In this document: in pieces, positions 1-28,465 of the stretch
Layout: each line of letters begins with the position of its first letter
How positions within the stretch are numbered: the stretch's first letter is position 1
IMG/VR virus record: IMGVR_UViG_3300030388_001525
Coordinates: 1 to 64,000 of that record
Origin: a virus
Direction: 5' to 3' (one strand)
Length of the DNA: 64,000 nt
Program-made: the position numbers and the translations under genes
Notes under the pieces: generated by a model
What the model was told of the DNA's origin: nothing
Database searches by the model: none
Seen by the model: the letters and a program-made list of their open reading frames with translations, nothing else

Positions 1-1331
1 TAAACATAAACTTTTCCCGCCACTACAGTTGTTGATCCAACATTAATTTTTTCTCCTTGACTTGAGTAATCTACGCTCCCTGTTACATTAAGCAATGTGT
101 TACTTGCCCATGTTCCTGCCGTAACTCTACCTGTTTCTGTTATTTGACTTTGGTCTAAACCTATTGTTCCTGTGCTTGTTATTGTCCCTCCTGTTATAGC
201 TCCTGATGTAGCTACAGAAGTTACTGATCCACCGCCGCTTGCATTTAAAGTAATTGTAGAATTACTACTTTGATTTACAGTAAAAGATCCTCCCCCCGTC
301 AATCCTGTTCCTGGATTAATTGTTATAGTAGCATTATTTGCGGCTGAAGGTATGGTTGGAAAAGTTGTTAAATCACCTTCTCCGTTTATATATTCTTCTG
401 TTTCTCCTTGAAAACTTATAGCTAATGTTCCTGAAGACGTTACAGGTGTTCCTGTAATTTGCAAAGCATCTCCCGCCGCAGACAATGCTACACTTGTTAC
501 GCCTGAAGATGTAACATAATTACTATTATTAGTCCATTGACTAATATTACCGCTTTTGTTTGTAAAAGTTTGTGTATTACTTGCTGTAGTAGTACCAGTA
601 TTAGTTGTATAACCAGCTCCGTTAGTTAATTGATTATTATCAGTTATGGAGTTAGTAAACGTAACAGTTTCATTAGATGATTGATTTAATGTAATTGTAC
701 CTCCTCCCCCTAAACCTGTTCCTGCTGTAAATGTAATTGTTGCATTATTTGCAGTGGGAGGTATAGTTGGAAAGGTTTCTAAATTACCATCTCCTGTTAT
801 ATACTGACTACCAGAACCTACCACATCTATAGCGATAGTTCCAGAACCTGTTACTGGAGAACTACCTACACTAAAAGCATTTCCTGTATGAGACACTCCT
901 ACACTTGTAACTGTTCCTGTTGTAGAGCTTGTTCCTGCACCTATATCACTTCTAACCTGAGCTGCTGTTCTTGAACTAATTACTCCACTTGAAGTAGTTA
1001 AAAATGTTGATGCAGTTGTGGCTATTGTAGGTACTGATCCTAATGTTACCGTACCTGCAAAAGTTGCATTGCGACCAGTGTAATCGCCATTATCTAAAGA
1101 TATTGAAGCAGTTGCTGTTCCACTTGCTTTAAATTGTATTAAATCAGGAGTGCTTTCATCGTAAAATATACCCCAAGTAGGGTATTGACCACTAACACGC
1201 CAAATTGTAGCATCTGGCGCTCCAGTAACTGCACCTTGTGATGGTCCAGTAAAAGAAGGAGCTGTTACATTACCTACAAAAGTTCCGCTTCCTGTTACCG
1301 CAAAGTCTGATAAAAAATTATTAGTAGCCAT
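1..1331 (-). CDS. Tail fibre / receptor-binding protein, N-terminal part (runs off the window edge)
   Basis: The frame is open from ATG at 1331 to base 1, giving 443 codons without a stop. The product is rich in Gly, Ser, Thr and Asn, as in phage fibres. It contains two copies of a module of about 88 residues, each with an FPTIP motif followed by ANNATITxxxGTGLxGGG. The visible end reads STTVVAGKVYV, which in many phage fibres precedes a C-terminal domain ending in a GYxxxxxxFxPDKTWV-type strand. That ending is exactly what lies at the other edge of the window (63808-64000), so I infer one gene across the ends. It is the last fibre gene of the leftward late block, 32 nt after another fibre gene. 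The exact role (receptor binding) is inferred from composition. Confidence 0.8.
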   Translation of the reverse strand, partial: MATNNFLSDFAVTGSGTFVGNVTAPSFTGPSQGAVTGAPDATIWRVSGQYPTWGIFYDESTPDLIQFKASGTATASISLDNGDYTGRNATFAGTVTLGSVPTIATTASTFLTTSSGVISSRTAAQVRSDIGAGTSSTTGTVTSVGVSHTGNAFSVGSSPVTGSGTIAIDVVGSGSQYITGDGNLETFPTIPPTANNATITFTAGTGLGGGGTITLNQSSNETVTFTNSITDNNQLTNGAGYTTNTGTTTASNTQTFTNKSGNISQWTNNSNYVTSSGVTSVALSAAGDALQITGTPVTSSGTLAISFQGETEEYINGEGDLTTFPTIPSAANNATITINPGTGLTGGGSFTVNQSSNSTITLNASGGGSVTSVATSGAITGGTITSTGTIGLDQSQITETGRVTAGTWASNTLLNVTGSVDYSSQGEKINVGSTTVVAGKVYV

Positions 1332-10087: not shown

Positions 10088-11713
10088 TTATTCTTCGTTA
10101 GCTCTTCTATGTGTTATTATTGCATTTGTACTTAAAATAGTAGTAGCTACTGATACTGCATTAGTAAAGGCATGCTTTGTAACTTTCAGAGGATCTATCA
10201 CCCCCATTTTAAACATGTCTCCATAAACTTCATTCTTAACGTCGTAACCTACATTATTAATTCCATCTATTTTATAAATCTCTAATTTTTCATCACTCAT
10301 AACTTCGTCTGGATTCATTCCAGCATTTATTAATATTTGTTCTAAAGGAGCTTTTAACGCTTTAGATAAAATTAATGATGCAACAAGTTCATTATGTAAA
10401 TCAGAATAATCATATGGTTTTTTTAAACTATCATGTAAAGTCCATAAGGCTAATCCTCCTCCTGCAACAATTCCTTCTTGTAAAGCACTGCGCACAGCGC
10501 ATACCGAGTCATCGACTCGGTCAAATTTTTCTTTTTGTTCTACATCTGAGTTACCACCAACGTATATGCAACCTATTCCTCCCGCTAAACTTGCTATACG
10601 TTCATTGATAAAAACTCGAGATGCTGTGTCTTTAGTATTTTTTTGCTGAACCTTTAACTCTTCTATTCTTTTTTGTATCTCATCAGAAATATCTGTCTCT
10701 TTTATAATAACAGTTTCGCTTTGCCCAACAATAATCTTGTCTGCTTTTCCTAAATCTTTAGGAGTTATTAAACTTAAGTCATCTCCAGTCTTTTCAGAAT
10801 AGTATTTAGCACCAACTGCAAGAGCTATGTCTTGCATTAACTCGTGCTGCTTGTATCCAAACTGTGGTGGTAAAATATTACAGAACTTTAAACCATTACG
10901 AACAACATTAGCAGCCAGGGTATTTATTACATTGGTTGTACATGTTCCGATAATTAAAAGCTTCTCATTATTATTAATGACATTTTTTAATACGTTCTCT
11001 AATTGTAAGATATTACTAATCTCACTATCACATACTAATATCTTTACATCTTCAAGAATACATTCATCCTTCTTTTGATTATTAATAAATAGATTAGAAG
11101 TATACCCTCTGTTTATTTTTATACCGTTTGTAACCTCTGCATAGGTATCCGAAGATTGCGAACGCTCAACTGTAACAACTCCATCTTTACCTACCTTATT
11201 GTAAGCATCAGTTATAATTTTTCCTATTGTCTTGTCGTTGTTAGCAGATATTGTTGCTACATCCAACAGCTTTTTTTTAGAAATTTTTTGTGAGTTTACT
11301 TTTAAATCTTTTAATATACTTTCTTTAAGTGTATTGATGTGTCTAATTACCTCAGTAATATTATGCGTATCCTTTAACAACTCTTGACCTGCATTAACTA
11401 TAGCCTCCGTCAAAACAATAGCTGTAGTTGTACCATCACCAGCTGAGTTAGCCGTTCTATTAGCAGCATCCTTCATCATTTGAATTGCTAAATTTTCTAC
11501 AGGGTCGTTTAACTCTATTGACCTTGCAACAGTAACTCCGTCTTTTGTTATAGTAATACTATTTGTATGTTGAGGTGATTCTATTAAAACTGTTTTACCT
11601 CGCGGGCCAAGTGTACTTTTGACTGCTTTAGAAATTGTAGTTATTCCTTTAATTAACTTTTGTCTTCCATGATCATCGAAGCAGATGTCTTTTGGAATGT
11701 ATCCTGAACTCAT
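10088..11713 (-). CDS. groEL: Chaperonin GroEL
   Basis: 541 residues, full family length. Hallmarks: STLGPRGKTVLI (33-44), KDGVTVARSIEL (57-68), the nucleotide loop AGDGTTTAIVL (91-101, D93 matching E. coli Asp87), VDDSVCAVRSALQEG with the Asp matching Asp398, and GIVAGGGLALW. The product is a double-ring ATPase that folds proteins in a closed chamber. The C-terminus ends RRANEE and lacks the GGM-rich tail of bacterial GroEL. The central apical domain is diverged from host-type sequences. Together with groES it forms a self-contained chaperonin operon, with a TATATTTG octamer 25 nt before the ATG. Few phages carry their own GroEL. Confidence 0.95.
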   Translation of the reverse strand: MSSGYIPKDICFDDHGRQKLIKGITTISKAVKSTLGPRGKTVLIESPQHTNSITITKDGVTVARSIELNDPVENLAIQMMKDAANRTANSAGDGTTTAIVLTEAIVNAGQELLKDTHNITEVIRHINTLKESILKDLKVNSQKISKKKLLDVATISANNDKTIGKIITDAYNKVGKDGVVTVERSQSSDTYAEVTNGIKINRGYTSNLFINNQKKDECILEDVKILVCDSEISNILQLENVLKNVINNNEKLLIIGTCTTNVINTLAANVVRNGLKFCNILPPQFGYKQHELMQDIALAVGAKYYSEKTGDDLSLITPKDLGKADKIIVGQSETVIIKETDISDEIQKRIEELKVQQKNTKDTASRVFINERIASLAGGIGCIYVGGNSDVEQKEKFDRVDDSVCAVRSALQEGIVAGGGLALWTLHDSLKKPYDYSDLHNELVASLILSKALKAPLEQILINAGMNPDEVMSDEKLEIYKIDGINNVGYDVKNEVYGDMFKMGVIDPLKVTKHAFTNAVSVATTILSTNAIITHRRANEE

Positions 11714-11746: not shown

Positions 11747-11885
11747 CAATTTATATTTCAACTTACATATGTTAGAATGTTGTTTTATTTGTTCTACTAT
11801 ACTACTATATAGTTTTATACTACTATACTATTCTTTTATTATTATAATAATACTTTATAATTAACATTAATATTAATATATATTA

Positions 11886-11940
11886 ATAAATAACTATAAA
11901 TCAAATAGTTATAAAAAATTAAATTAACATTAAATCAACA
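11886..11940 (+). repeat. 55-bp duplicated element, copy 1
   Basis: The element starts ATAAATAACTA, contains a 21-bp inverted repeat (11891-11911, arms TAACTAT/ATAGTTA), a 3-nt spacer, and then 26 bp (11915-11940) identical to 22263-22288. Copy 2 has the same total length and order. The flanking 11760-11958 stretch is extremely AT-rich and alternates TA runs, like a duplex-unwinding region. It lies in the 306-bp gap between the groEL start and the gene ending at 12020. No gene fits this gap. Confidence 0.7.
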
Positions 11941-11958
11941 CATTAATAACATTAAGAT

Positions 11959-16628: not shown

Positions 16629-16686
16629 CACCTTATGCCCCACTATTAATCGTAGTGGGGTTTTGAGGTGCAAGGCAATAATGCCC
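16629..16686 (+). ncRNA. Structured intergenic RNA element 2 (before the second methyltransferase operon)
   Basis: An outer CACCT / AGGTG helix (16629-16633, 16666-16670) encloses the 8-bp stem CCCCACTA / TAGTGGGG (16638-16645, 16653-16660), followed by TTTT. A GGCA-ATAA-TGCC hairpin (16674-16685) then precedes an A-rich leader to the ATG at 16707. The architecture and the GGCAATARTGCC motif match element 1. Confidence 0.55.
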
Positions 16687-17828: not shown

Positions 17829-17867
17829 CACCCCACTATGTTTTGATCGTAGTGGGGTTTTGGGGTG
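17829..17867 (+). ncRNA. Leader hairpin element 3
   Basis: The stem CCCCACTA / TAGTGGGG (17831-17838, 17850-17857) repeats the stem of element 2 with a longer loop. CACCCC (17829-17834) can instead pair with GGGGTG (17862-17867), so two exclusive folds are possible. It is the 5' leader of the gene at 17902 if the promoter above is right. Confidence 0.45.
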
Positions 17868-17901
17868 AAAATCAAATTTTATATTAATTTAAATCAAAAC
17901 T

Positions 17902-19564: not shown

Positions 19565-19861
19565 ATGAAAAAAGAAATATTTGATAAATACGCTACTGCA
19601 ATAGCAGAGCAATTTCACCTCAACTTAGATGAGATGTTTGATAAATCCAGGAGAAGAGATTTAGTAGATGCTCGACAACTACTTTTTTACTTATGTCTTG
19701 AAAGACCAATTAGAGTCTCTTATGTACAGAAGTTTATGGAAGACAACGGATGCAAGATTGCACATTCCACAATTATACATGGATACAAACAAGCTAAAGC
19801 TTTAATAGACGCAGATAAAGATTACTTGCATATGATTGAAAAAATTAATAAAGAATTTTAA
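19565..19861 (+). CDS. DnaA domain-IV-like DNA-binding protein 1
   Basis: 98 residues. DLVDARQLLFYLCLERPIRVSYV followed by HSTIIHGYKQAKALID is the DnaA C-terminal helix-turn-helix signature (R-x-VxARQ-xxYL ... HSTVxHxxxxI) that contacts DnaA boxes. The AAA+ ATPase, domain I and domain II are absent: the protein is the DNA-binding part alone with ~35 N-terminal residues. It could occupy origin or operator DNA, competing with or recruiting host DnaA. It lies just before the recombination genes and overlaps the next start by one base. Confidence 0.7.
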   Translation: MKKEIFDKYATAIAEQFHLNLDEMFDKSRRRDLVDARQLLFYLCLERPIRVSYVQKFMEDNGCKIAHSTIIHGYKQAKALIDADKDYLHMIEKINKEF

Positions 19862-20259
19862 TGAAGTACACCCTAAAAGATATAGTTAAACAAGCTTTAG
19901 AGGATAGGTCATCAGTGATGAGTACCCTTCCTCAAGGTTTTAGTGTTATTGGATTAGGGGTGAAGTTACAGTCATTTCCAAGCCAAACGGAAATTCTTAA
20001 CTGTTCAAAAGGAGGGGATTACTTTAAAGAAATAGAAATATCAGAGTATAATTATTTTTTTAATAATGGATGGAAAAAAGGAAAACTTAAAGTGGCTATA
20101 AACAACTGCCTTTATAAGTTAGACTTGATAGAAGTTAGAATGAAGGAAGAAATGAACACAAGAAAGAATGATAAACACATTCAAAATTTAAAAACAAGAA
20201 GAGAGAATGTTCTTGTTAAATATGCTAAACACAATCAAAAATTAAATCAATTAAATTAA
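19861..20259 (+). CDS. Hypothetical protein with C-terminal coiled coil (132 aa)
   Basis: Begins MKYTLKDIVKQALEDRSSVM. The second half is a charged coiled coil (LIEVRMKEEMNTRKNDKHIQ, VLVKYAKHNQKLNQL). The middle has an ISEYNYFFNNGWKKGKLK segment. It is coupled to the DnaA-like gene (TAATG) and 5 nt before the ERF gene, so it may be a recombination or replication accessory. No family recognised. Confidence 0.5.
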   Translation: MKYTLKDIVKQALEDRSSVMSTLPQGFSVIGLGVKLQSFPSQTEILNCSKGGDYFKEIEISEYNYFFNNGWKKGKLKVAINNCLYKLDLIEVRMKEEMNTRKNDKHIQNLKTRRENVLVKYAKHNQKLNQLN

Positions 20260-22116: not shown

Positions 22117-22233
22117 GCTTTTATAATGTTGATTTAGTCCTTCTATATTTAATTATATATAATTTATATACTCTTTTATTTTTATTTATTATTATTATTA
22201 ACTAATTTTCAACATTAAAAGTAAAGAATATAT

Positions 22234-22288
22234 ATAAATAACTAATTATTAATTAGTTAGCTAAAATTAAATTAACATTAAATCAACA
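22234..22288 (+). repeat. 55-bp duplicated element, copy 2
   Basis: Same order and length as 11886-11940: ATAAATAACTA, a perfect 21-bp palindrome (22239-22259, TAACTAATTA-T-TAATTAGTTA), a 3-nt spacer, then the identical 26 bp (22263-22288). It ends 13 bp before the primase-helicase ATG. The preceding 22140-22233 stretch is almost pure A/T, similar in style to the region left of copy 1. Confidence 0.7.
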
Positions 22289-22301
22289 TAAAACCAACAT
22301 A

Positions 22302-24713
22302 ATGGAAATAACCATCTTTAAAGACATCAAAAATACCTCACAACCATTTTACCGAGAGGTCGAAGTAGTATTAACAAGAATACAACAAGGAGCAACAAAA
22401 GATTTAGTAAAAAGTATAAGAAAAGAAAAAGACAAGTCAAAAAGAAATATATTAAAGCAATCATTACCAGCTATATGTTTTAGTGGACAATTTACAAAAA
22501 GAAATGATGCATCATTAACTGAACATTCTGGACTTATATGTTTAGACTTTGATGGATACACGACAACAAAAGATTTATTGCAAGAAAAAGAAAAGATATC
22601 CAAAGATGGTTATGTATATTCTGTTTTTATAAGTCCAAGTGGTAAAGGACTTAAAGTATTAATTAAAATACCAAAGGATAGTCTTAACCATAAAAATTAT
22701 TTTTATTCTTTAGAAAAACATTTTAATTCAGATTACTTTGACAGAACATCTAAAAACATATCTCGAGTATGTTATGAATCTTACGATCCTTTAATATTTA
22801 TAAATCCACAATCAAGCTTGTGGGATAAAATTATAGAGCAAGAATATACAGAAGTATCTAAAACACAAGGAGTTGTTACTATCCCAGTAAGTGATGAGAA
22901 TAAAATTGTAGAGATTTTAGTTAAGTGGTGGGAGAAAAAATATGGAATGATAGATGGTGAAAGAAATAATAACGTATACATTTTAGCTTCAGCTTTTAAT
23001 GACTTTGGAGTTAATCTAAACCTGGCTAAATATGTAATGAGTTCTTTTTCCTCTAAAGACTTTCCTTCATCAGAAGTTGATAGAACTATAAAATCTGCAT
23101 ATGCTCAACAACAAAACTTTGGTACGAAGTTTTATGAAGACGAAGAAAAAGTAAATATGATTAAGCATAAGCTTTTAAGTGGTGTAACAAAAAAAGAAAT
23201 TAGATCTCAGTTAGTTGATGACAATATTGAGGTCTCAGTAATAGAAAATGTCATTAATAAATTAGAAGAAGAACATAGCAATAATATATTTTGGACTAAA
23301 AACGAAAAAGGCGTAATTAAAATAGTCCATATATTATTTAAAAATTTCTTGGAAGACAATGGATTTTATAAATTTAATCCTGAAGGAAGTAAAAACTACG
23401 TATTTGTAAGGGTGACTAATAATTTAATAGACCACACCTCTGAAAAGGAAATTAAAGATTATATTTTAAATTATCTTTTAGAAATTGATGATTACACTAT
23501 TTATAATTATTTTGCTGAACATACAAGATACTTTAGAGAAGAGTTTTTAACCTTACTATCTTCAATAAATGTTTTCTTTATAGAGGACACCAAAGAAACT
23601 GCATATTTATATTATAGAAATTGTGCAGTATCAATTAAATATAATCAAATAGAAACTATAGATTACATTGACTTAGGTGGTTATGTGTGGAAGGATCATG
23701 TAATAAACAGAGATTTTGATTTATGTGATGTAGGCACTTGTGATTACAAAACATTTATTTCCCATATATGTGGTTCTGATTCATCACGAATAAAGTCTAT
23801 GGAAACAACGATAGGATATATGTTGCATGGATGGAAAAATTTAGCATATTGCCCAGCAGTGATTTTAAATGATGAGGTAATAACTGACAATCCAGAAGGA
23901 GGTACAGGTAAAGGTTTGTTTATGAATGCACTAAGTCATATGAAAAAGTTAGTATTTATTGATGGTAAGTCTTTTAATTTTGAAAGATCATTTGCATATC
24001 AAACTGTAAGTGCCGATACTCAGATTTTATGTTTTGATGATGTGAAAAAATACTTTGACTTTGAAAGGTTGTTTTCTGTTATTACGGAAGGGCTAACCCT
24101 TGAGAAGAAAAATCGTGATGCGATCAAGATACCATTCAATAAATCTCCTAAAATAGCTATAACTACCAACTATGCTATAAGTGGAGAAGGTACAAGTTTT
24201 GAGAGAAGAAAATGGGAGTTAGAGTTGGCTCAACATTACACAAAAGAATATACGCCTTTAGTTGAGTTTGGTAGACTTATGTTTGGAGAATGGAACGATG
24301 AAGAGTGGTGTCAATTTGACAACTATATGATTAAGAATTTACAAAACTATCTTGAAGTAGGATTATTAAAAAGTGAATTTGTTAATTTAAAAATTCGAAA
24401 ACTATCTGCTAAAACTGGACATGATTTTATAGAGTGGTGTGGACTATTAGGCGAGACTGCATATCAAGATAAGCTTAAATTTAATGTAAAGGTTTATAAA
24501 AATGATTTATACAATGATTTTGTTGAAGAAAACCCAGACAGATCCTCACGAGGTAAAATGACAATTAGTAGAACAAGATTTTATAAATGGCTTACATCTT
24601 ATTCAGTATACAAGTATAGTTGTGAACCACAAGAGGGCAGAGATTCAGTTGGTAAGTGGATTAAATTTGTTAATATTCATAGCAAGGAGTCAAACGGAAA
24701 GTTAAAACTATGA
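22302..24713 (+). CDS. Primase-helicase fusion (VirE/BT4734-type AEP primase + SF3 helicase)
   Basis: 803 residues. Residues ~45-170 resemble the BT4734/VirE N-terminal primase domain: HSGLICLDFDG with the metal-binding D82 and D84, FISPSGKGLKVLI (110-121) and NISRVCYESYDP. Residues ~200-270 form a PriCT-like helical domain. Residues ~480-680 are an SF3/D5-type helicase with Walker A GGTGKG (533-538), Walker B ILCFDD (575-580) and the sensor KIAITTNYAIS. It should unwind and prime the phage origin. No phage polymerase is encoded in the window, so a host polymerase would extend. It overlaps the DEAH helicase by 4 nt. Confidence 0.85.
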   Translation: MEITIFKDIKNTSQPFYREVEVVLTRIQQGATKDLVKSIRKEKDKSKRNILKQSLPAICFSGQFTKRNDASLTEHSGLICLDFDGYTTTKDLLQEKEKISKDGYVYSVFISPSGKGLKVLIKIPKDSLNHKNYFYSLEKHFNSDYFDRTSKNISRVCYESYDPLIFINPQSSLWDKIIEQEYTEVSKTQGVVTIPVSDENKIVEILVKWWEKKYGMIDGERNNNVYILASAFNDFGVNLNLAKYVMSSFSSKDFPSSEVDRTIKSAYAQQQNFGTKFYEDEEKVNMIKHKLLSGVTKKEIRSQLVDDNIEVSVIENVINKLEEEHSNNIFWTKNEKGVIKIVHILFKNFLEDNGFYKFNPEGSKNYVFVRVTNNLIDHTSEKEIKDYILNYLLEIDDYTIYNYFAEHTRYFREEFLTLLSSINVFFIEDTKETAYLYYRNCAVSIKYNQIETIDYIDLGGYVWKDHVINRDFDLCDVGTCDYKTFISHICGSDSSRIKSMETTIGYMLHGWKNLAYCPAVILNDEVITDNPEGGTGKGLFMNALSHMKKLVFIDGKSFNFERSFAYQTVSADTQILCFDDVKKYFDFERLFSVITEGLTLEKKNRDAIKIPFNKSPKIAITTNYAISGEGTSFERRKWELELAQHYTKEYTPLVEFGRLMFGEWNDEEWCQFDNYMIKNLQNYLEVGLLKSEFVNLKIRKLSAKTGHDFIEWCGLLGETAYQDKLKFNVKVYKNDLYNDFVEENPDRSSRGKMTISRTRFYKWLTSYSVYKYSCEPQEGRDSVGKWIKFVNIHSKESNGKLKL

Positions 24714-27817: not shown

Positions 27818-28224
27818 ATAAACAATTAGCTAAAGAATTAAATGTATTTGCAATAGAAGTTGCTAAAAGATTTTCTTTTAAAAATAGAGAAGGAAACGTG
27901 TCTAATGAAAAGTTTGAGGTAAATGAAGTTATTCCTACTTCAGACCAAACAGCTGTTGTTTTTTTTAAAAAGAACACAGCTAAATTAGGAATGGGTTTTT
28001 TTTATTATATAGGACGTGGATCATCCAAAGGATGGAAATATTTTTTTCCAACAGACTCACACATAGTAGGGATGATGGCTTCTCAATATTATAAATTAGA
28101 AGTTGAAAGACATAATTTTGGTAAAAACTTTGAAAATATTCCTGAATCTACTCCATTAGTAGATCAATACAATCGTAACAGATCAGTAGATAACCATATA
28201 TCACACAAATCTCAAATTAGTTAA
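27814..28224 (+). CDS. Hypothetical last early protein (136 aa)
   Basis: The start is ATG at 27814 (ATGA overlap); it begins MNKQLAKELNVFAIEVAKRF. A compact alpha/beta middle (TSDQTAVVFFKKNTAKLGMG, FYYIGRGSSKGWKYFFPTDS) is followed by a polar tail. The NTAKLGMGFFYYI piece is conserved-looking in phage proteins of unknown role. It is the final + gene and overlaps the last - gene by 8 bp. Confidence 0.6.
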   Translation: MNKQLAKELNVFAIEVAKRFSFKNREGNVSNEKFEVNEVIPTSDQTAVVFFKKNTAKLGMGFFYYIGRGSSKGWKYFFPTDSHIVGMMASQYYKLEVERHNFGKNFENIPESTPLVDQYNRNRSVDNHISHKSQIS

Positions 28225-28465
28225 TTAACTTGTCTACTTCTTTTGCGTTAACTAATTCTTGACACTTTTCATATTCTTCAGTAGAAATAAAATAATCGAT
28301 TAACACATCATATGCATCACCTTCCATTACTTTAATAGGTTTGTATGGATGAAATAAAACAGCTACATCATCTTTGATTTCTAACAATTCCTCGAAAGAT
28401 TTTTGACCTGTGATAATTTGATAGCTATCAATCATCATGTCTCTATCACTATTATGGTTGTCCAT
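28217..28465 (-). CDS. Hypothetical last late protein (82 aa)
   Basis: Begins MDNHNSDRDMMIDSYQIITG and contains VAVLFHPYKPIKVMEGDAYD and a helix EEYEKCQELVNAKEVDKLI. Soluble and acidic. It overlaps the giant protein gene by 14 nt upstream and converges with the last early gene (8-bp overlap). No family recognised. Confidence 0.6.
   Translation of the reverse strand: MDNHNSDRDMMIDSYQIITGQKSFEELLEIKDDVAVLFHPYKPIKVMEGDAYDVLIDYFISTEEYEKCQELVNAKEVDKLIN

Follow-up and report, generated by a model that had tools for sequence, protein, structure and literature searches.

Background

The origins of iteron plasmids contain tandem direct repeats arranged in helical phase together with an AT-rich unwinding region, and they are assisted by IHF or HU (PMC4980987). 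In bacterial oriC, the basal unwinding system consists of a pair of DnaA boxes and of DnaA-trios (3'-GAT-5') (PMC8287927). In E. coli DnaA, base contacts are made through residues 432-435 and 438-439, and D433 is part of a dyad that is conserved in cellular DnaA (PMC5043019).

The element described here, which is found twice in a phage genome, resembles the origins of pSC101, P1, R6K and RK2 in its phased tandem repeats, its AT-rich region and its IHF-like core. It differs from them in that its sites are short, the 7-bp core lying in repeats of 11 bp as against 17-22 bp, in that there are two copies per genome, and in that the site sequence diverges fast between relatives. No winged-helix Rep was recognised in the phage; the candidate is instead a protein with the fold of DnaA domain IV. 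Like the basal unwinding system of oriC, the element has two boxes in tandem next to an AT-rich tract, together with an IHF-like site and, in some cases, CTA repeats, but its sites do not fit the DnaA-box pattern TTWTNCACA and the phage has no match to the DnaA ATPase. The candidate protein, here called A, shares its fold with bacterial DnaA domain IV (1J1V, 3PVP), although unlike cellular DnaA it is a stand-alone polypeptide, and it is variable at the position aligned to D433.

The sequence analysed, referred to as the window, comprises 64,000 nt of the IMG/VR record IMGVR_UViG_3300030388_001525, the whole of which (G000) has 65,376 bases. G000 encodes GroEL, GroES, an Erf-type annealing protein, an exonuclease, a primase-helicase and two DnaA domain-IV-like proteins, and it has a match to a P22-like portal just below the Pfam cut-off. 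A named relative, MW202828, is an environmental podovirus with a circular genome. A megablast search of the replication region against named phages gave no match, and Elemovirus phages have only part of the primase in common; in the part of them that was read, neither DnaA nor groEL is annotated.

Results

Organization of the duplicated element

A preliminary description of this DNA had reported a duplicated 55-bp block at 11886-11940 and 22234-22288. The duplication is real: 47 of the 55 positions are identical, and both blocks contain the exact 26-mer AAAATTAAATTAACATTAAATCAACA, which is the longest exact direct repeat in the window. In dinucleotide shuffles no such repeat is expected by chance, even with 3 mismatches allowed. 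The unit, however, is longer than 55 bp. Each copy extends over approximately 100 bp (Table 1). Besides a central motif and an AT-rich tract, it contains four 7-bp sites whose register is the same in both copies, with gaps of 63, 11 and 11 bp between successive site starts; the first two 11-bp direct repeats are those covered by the 26-mer. The locations given earlier were also correct, one copy being upstream of groEL and the other block ending 13 bp before the ATG of the primase-helicase gene; the last primase-side iteron ends 1 bp before this ATG. Both copies have the same orientation, but the groEL-side copy faces minus-strand genes. Both copies, as well as most of the relatives that have the primase-side element, show direct sites in tandem at about one helical turn, spaced 11 bp apart.

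Table 1. Positions of the two element copies and of associated genes in the window
Feature	Position	Strand	Remarks
groEL	10088-11713	-	first element copy upstream of its start
AT-rich tract, groEL-side	11806..11925	.	8.3% GC, lowest 120-bp window in 64 kb; candidate unwinding region
Upstream site TTAACAT, groEL-side	11861..11867	+	register as 22209-22215
Core AATCAAATAGTTA, groEL-side	11899..11911	+	perfect match to IHF consensus WATCAANNNNTTR
Iterons, groEL-side: TTAACAT 11924, TCAACAC 11935, ATAACAT 11946	11924..11952	+	11-bp spacing
Protein A, stand-alone DnaA domain-IV-like, 98 aa	19565..19861	+	Pfam Bac_DnaA_C 2e-9; candidate site binder
AT-rich tract, primase-side	22140..22259	.	9.2% GC, second-lowest region
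Upstream site TCAACAT, primase-side	22209..22215	+	
Core TATTAATTAGTTA, primase-side	22247..22259	+	1 mismatch to IHF consensus (C to T)
Iterons, primase-side: TTAACAT 22272, TCAACAT 22283, CCAACAT 22294	22272..22300	+	11-bp spacing
Primase-helicase	22302..24713	+	BT4734-like_N, DUF5906; PriCT_1 below cut-off; leader holds second copy
Protein B, second DnaA domain-IV-like, 146 aa	26471..26911	+	weak coiled-coil matches at C-terminus

Central core and AT-rich tracts

The blocks had been described as carrying a 21-bp inverted repeat whose pairing was under selection. The inverted repeat is perfect in the primase-side copy only, and the groEL-side copy has just 7-bp arms. Across a dereplicated set of 57 elements, pairing between the arms covers 3.84 of 7 positions, and random re-pairing of arms gives 3.75 (sd 0.07); pairing is at the random level, the claim of selection on symmetry is not borne out, and we rejected the palindrome as the functional unit. 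What is conserved in the middle of the element is the asymmetric sequence AATCAATAAGTTA, which fits the IHF consensus WATCAANNNNTTR, with the qualification that column conservation of this core is inflated because the best match was chosen in each element. The consensus is present in 25 of 48 groEL-side elements versus 4.9% of shuffles, with overlap of the iterons excluded. No HU or IHF gene was found in G000.

The left flanks of both copies are extremely AT-rich, as previously stated, and the two 120-bp windows of lowest GC content in the 64 kb are those at the two elements. Runs of the trinucleotide CTA on one strand, reminiscent of DnaA-trios, are seen in the AT-rich tract of groEL-side elements, both here (11790-11840) and in L146, L148 and L159. 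CTA hexamers number 1.29 versus 0.21 in shuffles, and at least two are present in 12 of the 48 groEL-side elements. Compared with the basal unwinding system, the trinucleotide repeats are thus restricted to a minority of elements. The minimum of the GC skew is 1.2-1.7 kb away from the element, near a switch in gene direction; since the skew tracks gene direction, it was discarded as evidence for an origin.

Recurrence in related phages

Absence of the element from close relatives with conserved flanking genes had been named as grounds for rejecting its proposed role, and we therefore looked for it in such relatives. The groEL-side copy withstood this comparison: nearly all relatives that could be read have the element upstream of groEL, sometimes with inverted sites and, in a few lineages, with an inverted core. 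The primase-side copy is missing in a set of relatives from several lineages. Many of the primase leaders, taken from viral contigs encoding the primase, have two or three iterons near the ATG and, separated from these by a middle region, one or two sites farther upstream. In L110, L112 and L113 an extra run of CTGACAT repeats follows downstream of the usual sites upstream of groEL, while L137 and L161 have another form of site at this location (ACGACAAC in L161) with the usual core.

The type of site varies greatly between lineages, with TCAACAT, TTAACAT, TCGACAT, TTGACAT, GCGACAT, TCGTCAT, CTGTCAT, CTGCCAT, TTGGAAT, TGAACAT and TGAGCAT among others. Within one genome, the two copies agree in site type: the distance between a genome's own copies is 0.026 versus 0.186 when permuted (p<=1e-5; 17 genomes), and with 9 distinct genomes the exact p is 2.8e-6. 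The site lists for this and for the distance, column and tree tests described below were hand-picked from an automated listing and from the sequence itself, and involve some observer choice. The geometry outlasts these changes in sequence, with gaps of 8-9/52-57/11, 63/11/11 or 61/11; a minority deviates from it (L053, L065, L068, L076 and L078).

The sites are largely confined to the elements. TCGACATA occurs seven times in the complete circular genome of MW202828 (60,850 bp), always at an element or near one: five occurrences are at the groEL-side element, the other two approximately 150 bp before the primase start. In two loci, all four occurrences of GCGACATA are inside the element, and in other loci the phage-specific 7-8-mers are mostly within it, with few outside. 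A search of a genome collection with protein A alone produced one distant match and one close relative (64% identity), the 61.6-kb contig L172. This contig, which is an out-of-sample case, carries both elements, with TCGACAT sites and gaps of 8/53/11. L172 (WLWP01000006.1) has been binned in a Pseudomonadales MAG yet carries these phage genes, probably through a binning error.

Candidate binding proteins

The predicted structure of protein A (pLDDT 91.9) matched DnaA domain IV on DNA in Foldseek (3pvp, TM 0.80; 1j1v, TM 0.73), and its sequence profile matched 8btg with an E value of 3.7e-5. Protein A is present in every relative locus that reaches its position, and the primase loci without it end before that position. 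When the other proteins are taken into account, the partial correlation of site distance with A distance is 0.38, the highest of 14 families; the values for the primase, the protein encoded at 28217-28465 and protein B are 0.16, 0.30 and -0.15. In comparisons of phages with similar primases but different sites, protein A ranks among the most diverged proteins. Where primases are 80-82% identical but sites are CTGCC or CTGTC on one side and TTGGA on the other, A has only 49-53% in common, whereas pairs with the same site within either group have 79-87% of A in common.

Gene-tree parsimony is not discriminating, with the site classes requiring 13 changes on the tree of A versus 12-13 on the others, and L079 and L080 differ in site type though their A proteins are 78% identical. 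For these two reasons we regard A as the probable, rather than the firmly identified, binder of the sites. In a column-by-column test of association within A, the top columns, 44 and 34, seem to mark the TTGGAAT clade; columns 66 and 68, which align to DnaA 433 and 435, are significant but weaker. The position aligned to D433 is occupied by 12 residue types among the phages. Protein B was rejected as the binder, since no B was found in lineages that carry the element with TTGGAAT, GCGACAT or CTGCCAT sites, and since its correlation with site distance is negative; an exception is L056, which has both TTGGAAT sites and B.

Discussion

Phased iterons, an AT-rich tract, an IHF-like bend site, a protein of the DnaA domain-IV type and the adjacent primase-helicase gene all point to an element of the origin type. 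On balance, an iteron/DnaA-box-type origin of phage replication is in our view the probable function of the element, with the copy before the primase serving as a further origin, as a site that controls this gene or as both, and with a phage protein, most likely A, as the binder. Origins or binding sites for DnaA-IV-like proteins had been suggested in the preliminary description; with the iterons, AT tracts, IHF-like core and DnaA-IV gene this is still the best candidate, while the part of the argument that relied on symmetry fails.

Under the origin model, the groEL-side copy would be the general one, with the primase-leader copy acting as a second origin and/or in control of the primase gene. 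A phage DNA-binding protein, most likely A, would bind the upstream site, or a tandem pair of sites 8-9 bp apart, and the same protein would bind the two or three downstream iterons at 11-bp spacing. The two groups, 52-63 bp apart in most lineages, would be separated by about five or six helical turns, and the core between them may be where a host protein of the HU/IHF type bends the DNA. Opening of the AT-rich tract would follow, and the phage primase-helicase could be loaded. Protein A has no AAA+ ATPase domain and G000 has no match to the DnaA ATPase (PF00308); therefore melting must come from something other than A.

While we favour an origin, a regulatory role is the main rival for the primase-side copy. 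A phage regulator, either A or another protein, could use the element to control transcription of the primase operon and the groEL region, with no origin function at all. This would account for a primase-side copy that is in a gene leader and runs almost into the ATG, and for a groEL-side copy upstream of groEL and near divergent early genes, and DnaA, according to PMC8203912, can also serve as a transcription factor. However, the groEL-side copy, oriented as the primase-side one, faces minus-strand genes, the AT content at both copies is the most extreme in the window, and a long multi-site array with a phased IHF-like core is more origin-like than a simple operator. Moreover, origin function and autoregulation can coexist, as in iteron plasmids, and we consider control of transcription alone rather unlikely. 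It is also possible, if unlikely, that the element, whether an origin or a control site, is bound by a different phage protein, such as the primase-helicase or one of the small conserved proteins encoded at 19861-20259 and 28217-28465. This possibility overlaps with the other explanations, and our confidences in them therefore do not add up to one. The gene trees do not favour A over other proteins, and the 28217-28465 protein has a partial correlation of 0.30, but A occurs universally, its fold is a specific DNA-binding one and its distances best track the sites, and the primase is 80-82% identical between phages with unrelated sites.

Two other readings have little to recommend them. The resemblance of TCAACA to the TCCACA half of TTATCCACA, seen directly, might suggest ordinary DnaA boxes for the host DnaA, but none of the 19 TTWTNCACA matches in the window is in either element and their total is near chance. 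The divergence of the sites to TTGGAAT, CTGCCAT and TCGTCAT in related phages is likewise unexpected for a conserved host protein, making this reading very improbable. Still less probable is an attP, packaging or partition site. IHF-like cores with flanking arm-type sites do occur at attP and cos, but no tyrosine integrase (PF00589) match was obtained in G000, and the two copies are approximately 10 kb apart with neither adjoining the terminase genes, as placed by synteny with MW202828.

Taking the origin reading further, we tentatively propose that a widespread clade of groEL-carrying tailed phages may start replication by means of a DnaA domain-IV protein that stands alone and lacks the ATPase. 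The recognition helix of this protein and its boxes could diversify together from one phage to the next, giving related phages mutually exclusive origins. In the literature, our coverage of which was incomplete, we found no description of such an origin. If the proposal is true, recognition of DnaA-type boxes is separable from the DnaA ATPase and can be rapidly re-specified, these phages provide a natural series of matched protein-site pairs for decoding the specificity of DnaA domain IV, and the element may serve as an origin marker for a large group of uncultured phages. The proposal predicts that the A protein of each phage binds its own repeats and not those of another site class.

Other repeats were noted in the record. 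A 33-nt direct repeat (TTRATCGTAGTGGGGTTTTGRGGTG...), 85% identical between 16646-16678 and 17843-17875, is found between early-region ORFs, its copies being approximately 1.2 kb apart. The last 78 bases of G000, ending at 65376, are an exact repeat of window positions 897-974, which may reflect a circular or permuted genome whose ends overlap in the assembly, or else a repeat in a tail gene.
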